Below, piece by piece: positions 8,116-9,023 of a DNA stretch of 56,299 nt. The position numbers were made by a program, and so were the translations under genes. The notes below the pieces were generated by a model. The model had not been told where the DNA came from. It made no database searches and was given only the letters and a program-made list of their open reading frames with translations. This DNA is from Gammaproteobacteria bacterium (GTDB lineage Bacteria; Pseudomonadota; Gammaproteobacteria; Xanthomonadales; Marinicellaceae): contig JAJRQG010000006.1 in NCBI GenBank assembly GCA_024280395.1, forward strand, positions 1-56,299, in the 5' to 3' direction. Every line of letters starts with the position of its first letter. Position 1 is the stretch's first letter.

Positions 8116-8907
8116 TTAATCTGCGTCTAACCCCGTCATACCCATAATATTATACCCAGCATCTACATAAGTAATTTCACCAGTAATGCCTTTGGCCCAA
8201 TCAGAACACATAAAAGTTGCAGCATTGGCTACATCCTCTTGTGACACTGTGGTACGTAAAGGAGATTTTTCTGCCACATGATCCAACATCTTTTTGAAAT
8301 TGCCGATACCAGATGCAGCTAAGGTTTTAATCGGCCCTGCTGAAATGGCATTTACACGAGTTCCTTCAGCACCCAAAGAGTAAGCCATGTATCTTACATT
8401 GGCTTCTAGTGCGGCTTTAGCTACACCCATCACATTGTAATTGCTCATGGCTTTTACTGCGCCCAAATAACTCAAGGTTAACATAGAACCATTTCTTCCT
8501 TTCATCAAGTCACGCCCAGCTTTGGCCAGTGCAGCATAAGAATACGAGCTAATATCCATTGCTGTCTGATAACCTTCACGGGTTAAATTCTGTAAATAAT
8601 CACCTTGTAACAATTCACGTGGCGCAAAGCCAACTGAGTGAACAATAATGTCAATACCATCCCATTGTTTTGCAATTTCTGAGAATACATTGTCGATTTC
8701 TTCATCGCTTTGAACATCACAAGGCAGCATAATACTTGAACCTGTGATGGCTGCGATTTTCTGAACACGCTTTAATAATTTTTCGTTCTGATAAGTGTAT
8801 GCGATTTCAGCACCTTCGCGGTGAAATGCTTCTGCAATTGACCATGCAATTGAACGATTGCTGGCTACACCAACGATTAAGGCTTTTTTGCCTTAAAGTA
8901 AACCCAT
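8116..8907 (-). pseudogene. fabI: fabI, enoyl-[acyl-carrier-protein] reductase, with in-frame stop at codon 5
   Basis: From the ATG at 8907 (preceded on the minus strand by a good AGGGGA ribosome site) the frame reads MGLL[21 protein letters not shown] and then continues intact to 8116, giving 263 codons, the normal FabI length of about 262. The stop is TAA at 8893-8895. All FabI hallmarks are present after it: the NAD-binding [10 protein letters not shown] loop, HSVGFAP, and the catalytic Tyr and Lys in SYLGA and [11 protein letters not shown]. The next usable start (ATG at 8730) would delete the dinucleotide-binding segment. FabI reduces enoyl-ACP to acyl-ACP in fatty-acid synthesis and is normally essential unless FabV, FabK or FabL is present. 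A single base change would explain the stop. It could be a sequencing error, a fresh mutation or a read-through case. Confidence 0.85.
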
Positions 8908-9023
8908 AGTTGTCCCCTAAGATTTGAATTGATTAAGGAGTGTAATCATACGTTAGTTAAAATTAAAATTCATCTTTTTACACTCTTAATCTATAATATC
9001 ACGTTTTATTCAATCAAACTTTA

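Follow-up and report, generated by a model that had tools for sequence, protein, structure and literature searches.

An early in-frame TAA in fabI of a draft gammaproteobacterial genome is most likely an error or a passing mutation

How can a gene for enoyl-ACP reductase, fabI, carry a stop at its fifth codon when the rest of its reading frame is intact? The question is raised by a stretch of 56,299 nucleotides (the window), which is contig 22 of a 3.77 Mb draft genome in 158 contigs, 99.31% complete. The fabI frame lies on the minus strand (8116-8907) and runs from a start codon to a terminal TAA with a single interruption, starting ATG GGT TTA CTT TAA GGC AAA AAA GCC. The preliminary description had reported four codons reading MGLL and then a stop, and both the sequence and the genus comparison confirmed this TAA, codon 5, at 8895-8893 on the minus strand. 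The strong ribosome site that it had placed at ATG 8907 was also found, as a Shine-Dalgarno AGGGGA (8913-8918, minus strand) which aligned, together with the start codon, with those of genus-mates. In these the upstream sequence is AGGGGACAACT-ATG or nearly so, and the MGLL N-terminus, described as typical of FabI, is the same. If the TAA is real, the ribosome would translate a five-codon MGLL-stop frame (8893-8907, minus strand). Past codon 5, 258 open codons are followed by the terminal TAA, with no second lesion.

Possible ways to start behind the stop were examined. Direct reading of the frame showed no in-frame ATG, GTG or TTG between the stop and 8730, in agreement with the earlier claim. 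The next start is the ATG of codon 60 (8728-8730, minus strand), and a product from there would lack the first 59 residues, presumably the N-terminal nucleotide-binding part of the fold. Before codon 60, only the near-cognate codons ATC and ATT were present, at codons 11, 20, 24, 35, 51, 54 and 59. Three frames were read across the start, and no useful upstream start in another frame was observed. The mechanical ORF list gave instead a 204-aa ORF from ATG 8730 (8116-8730, minus strand). As a caution, one premature stop in a single draft assembly can be enough for gene-calling software to shorten an essential gene or to miss it altogether.

The protein encoded downstream of the stop was compared with solved structures and family models. 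The best structure was 4nqz, matched over the whole length (E 5.7e-100). The 12 best NCBIfam models were all FabI equivalogs, scoring 208-366 bits, with curated cut-offs of 299-477 bits that were reached by none. The segment YNVMGVAK aligned with YNVMGMAK of 4nqz and contains Tyr-x6-Lys, the active-site motif of FabI. The open codons, the end-to-end match and this motif support the earlier statement that the remainder of the gene is undamaged; the accompanying remark on FabI as a drug target has no bearing on the locus. The gene is like other genes for FabI, the NADH-dependent enoyl-ACP reductase, in its full-length match and in a Shine-Dalgarno, start and MGLL shared with genus-mates, but unlike theirs its frame, as assembled, contains a TAA at codon 5.

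In order to place the stop among relatives, 11 genomes of the genus including this one, one per species, were searched with the FabI protein. A close fabI without a stop was present in nine of the ten others, with a match covering only residues 1-230 in one of them (G003), and no stop at codon 5 was seen in any of the relatives' fabI genes read. The stop is thus absent from close relatives, as sampled by one genome per species, and the conservation between species that would point to functional read-through was not observed. The tenth genome (G008; 87% complete, 680 contigs) gave no close fabI, probably because of a missing contig. Among the genus sequences the fifth codon specifies K, S, E or D, and no other of the first 20 aligned positions varies as much; of the four codons that occur there, two differ from TAA by one substitution. 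The codons AAA AAA GCC that follow in the window are also present in genus-mates' fabI without the stop. Loci related to the window were found in bins named Lysobacterales or Alcanivoracaceae as well as in members of Marinicella.

The selection acting on the rest of the gene was estimated by the NG86 method with the stop codon left out. Compared with eight distinct sequences of the genus, dN was 0.035-0.116 and dS 1.6-2.7, the latter being saturated; the values against L010 were 0.035 and 1.62. Apart from the stop, the window's copy has six private residues. At columns invariant in the other members it has two, both mild (L78I and M134L), while the same count was 0 in five other members and 4, 5 and 18 in three. 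The codons of fabI other than the stop are under tight selection. A decaying pseudogene was rejected, since neither relaxed selection nor further lesions were found. The lack of decay in the rest of fabI indicates that the stop, if real, is very young.

Whether the cell could live without fabI depends on backup enoyl-ACP reductases, and the search for fabV, fabK, fabL or a second fabI suggested in the preliminary description was carried out. The FabV model (PF12241) matched none of the 11 genus genomes, and none of the 14 named control genomes either. Because no control had matched, the search was repeated with 61 genomes of the order; 13 of these matched, 10 strongly, which served as a positive control, whereas this genome did not match. 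In this genome, the FabK model (TIGR03151) scored 20 bits (cut-off 453) and the NMO model (PF03060) 24.5 bits (cut-off 28); both sub-threshold matches fell in one 421-aa frame on contig C113. Two SDR family searches of the genome gave 14 and 20 matches, fabI counted in both. The six best other SDRs of the search with 14 matches, all ranked above C94:2630-3199, were compared with NCBIfam, and none of the six was FabI or FabL; FabG, pteridine reductase and general SDR models were matched instead. A search with the DNA of the fabI N-terminus, allowing up to two mismatches, gave a single site in the genome. Protein, family and N-terminal DNA searches of the 99.31%-complete draft found no second fabI. 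None of the four was found in these searches, which weakens the backup-enzyme option.

A FabG on contig C37 adjoins a gene read as FabD, and from these sequences type II fatty acid synthesis seems to be present. Within a 99.31%-complete draft and the known families, no enoyl-ACP reductase gene other than fabI was detected. Given a single-copy fabI, no FabV, FabK or FabL found, and FabG and, by this reading, FabD present, a genuine null would be expected to kill the cell unless fatty acid came from outside.

We were also interested in whether such stops are frequent in this assembly. A reference-free scan covered 456,299 bases of this genome (the window and 20 stretches) and 459,972 bases of the genome G001. 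Coding signal reaching at least 20 codons upstream of the first usable start was found in 2 of 339 coding ORFs here, fabI being one of the two and having the higher score, compared with 9 of 348 in the G001 sample. Then 515 ORFs of relatives, some of them antisense frames, were used as queries; 195 gave matches, covering about 97 stretches of the sample from this genome, including that of fabI. The fabI stop was the only clear internal stop of a sense gene in these stretches, and no split frames were seen in them. Stops were also flagged in ten further rows, but on visual inspection these were antisense frames or fell beyond one end of the conserved gene. Comparison of the window with the stretches of seven relatives (161 ORFs, 34 matching) gave the same picture. 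A two-sided coding-potential scan yielded 17 stops in the sample of this genome and 29 in that of G001, most of them, by eye, antisense frames or adjacent genes, so that these counts give no usable rate. The samples do not support an error-prone assembly as a blanket cause. One more TAA-interrupted frame came up in the SDR family search, at a contig end (C36:5-343, minus strand), where a short-chain dehydrogenase frame, which we take to be DltE-like, has one TAA just before its LNVLINNAG motif.

Decoding of UAA as sense was considered as well. Rfam gave 36 tRNA matches from 150 of 263 candidates scored, a list that may be incomplete, and no TTA anticodon, which would read UAA, was present among the 35 tRNAs with an anticodon read by ARAGORN. 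Reassignment of UAA was rejected, because no UAA-decoding tRNA was seen and no other clear in-frame stop occurred in the about 97 stretches, although the SDR frame at the end of C36 carries a further TAA. The one Rfam match that ARAGORN did not call, at 40 bits, is a second, damaged tRNA-Asp (C77:7533-7614), which lies 140 bases after an intact copy and has a D-arm insertion and the anticodon GUA instead of GUC. It was dismissed as a suppressor, since a GUA anticodon should not read UAA.

Taking these results together, we favour, at a probability of roughly 60%, the reading that the living population has an undamaged, working fabI and that the codon-5 TAA stems from a miscall of one base or from a minority allele in the draft consensus. 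The cells would then carry a sense codon at position 5, and the miscall or minority allele would have been taken into the 158-contig consensus as TAA. This weight reflects the expectation that, with no other enoyl reductase detected, a null in fabI would not last. The presence of the stop in the assembly, its absence from the relatives read, the variable position and the lack of decay in fabI all support such an origin; against a miscall, the sampled assembly is mostly clean, so that no high error rate would compel an error exactly at fabI. That base miscalls create artefactual internal stops in draft bacterial assemblies is documented (PMC11017572). The spurious pseudogenes treated there resemble fabI, a conserved gene in a draft genome that is whole apart from one internal stop, but the sampled genome here is without an excess of such stops. 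On the other hand, the TAA could be real and either very recent or polymorphic, its carriers living on leaky read-through, near-cognate initiation or outside fatty acids, or forming a dying subpopulation. We consider this a possible but distinctly less probable account. The assembly does say TAA while its sampled remainder is mostly clean, and the tight dN/dS allows a mutation too young to have left other marks. However, fabI is the sole detected enoyl reductase and no in-frame ATG, GTG or TTG stands before codon 60. UAA followed by G is not known as a leaky stop, and a translated MGLL-stop minigene with a strong Shine-Dalgarno might itself be harmful. The study of short-lived in-frame stops in bacterial genes in PMC7918605 kept stops common to at least two species; the fabI stop likewise lies within a gene under purifying selection, but it is in no relative read and the dN/dS of fabI is far lower. 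That fabI has become dispensable through a second enoyl-ACP reductase, either missing from the assembly or of a type not recognised, appears unlikely. Some room for it is given by the draft state of the genome and by an SDR comparison that covered the six best others and known reductase families, but it sits poorly with FabV at 0/11 in the genus against 10/61 strong matches in the order, with FabK and NMO scores (20 and 24.5 bits) below cut-off, with the NCBIfam assignment of the six SDRs to neither FabI nor FabL, and with the absence of decay in the remaining fabI frame.

Passage of ribosomes through the stop was weighed in the same way. The sequence CTT-TAA (8893-8898) is followed by GGC AAA AAA G, and a formal path restores the frame: tRNA-Leu would slip +1 at CTT-TAA into AAG GCA and then −1 at a heptamer A AAA AAG in the +1 frame (8883-8889, minus strand), the use of which is speculative. 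The arithmetic works, and the predicted product, MGLLKAKKALIVG..., has normal length and the right lysines. In E. coli, A AAA AAG strongly promotes −1 slipping, but here the heptamer is explained by the AAA AAA GCC kept in genus-mates without the stop. CTT directly before a stop is the slip site of prfB (RF2), for which PMC12421855 gives AGGGGG three bases before CTTT and a TGA followed by C. fabI shares with the programmed +1 frameshift of prfB the CTT before an early in-frame stop, but lacks AGGGGG at the right spacing, has TAA-G instead of TGA-C, and would need a second, −1 slip. Moreover, two consecutive rare slips should yield little product, and the stop is in no relative's fabI read; a programmed bypass by this path is hardly credible. 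That the TAA is genuine and fixed, with FabI made at a low, regulated level via UAA read-through or via +1 then −1 slips four codons apart, is very improbable. If it were so, fabI would offer a rare example from nature in which an essential gene, one for which no backup was detected, is expressed through a stop codon. The efficiency of termination would then limit the output of an essential lipid-synthesis gene, in a manner resembling prfB. The fabI stop is most likely an error or a passing mutation rather than a novel mode of decoding. The three options of the preliminary description (an error, a recent loss with a backup, or read-through) were thus the right set, with the backup now weakened and read-through left without positive support.

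Stops in fabI were looked for across the class. Among 274 genomes searched with FabI, 225 gave matches, and 150 matches were listed, the window's included. In the 149 other gammaproteobacterial matches listed, nine were flagged with a stop, of which eight were terminal and one internal and at a different position, so a conserved early fabI stop elsewhere was rejected. Titles and the openings of abstracts gave no literature on an early stop in fabI. With one interrupted frame in these 149, wide gene scans will keep meeting such cases. The internal stop, in a gammaproteobacterial draft (G323, contig C180), is a TAG at codon 14 in a fabI that is complete apart from it, where, by eye, a one-base loss and a one-base gain a few bases apart seem to form compensating small indels.
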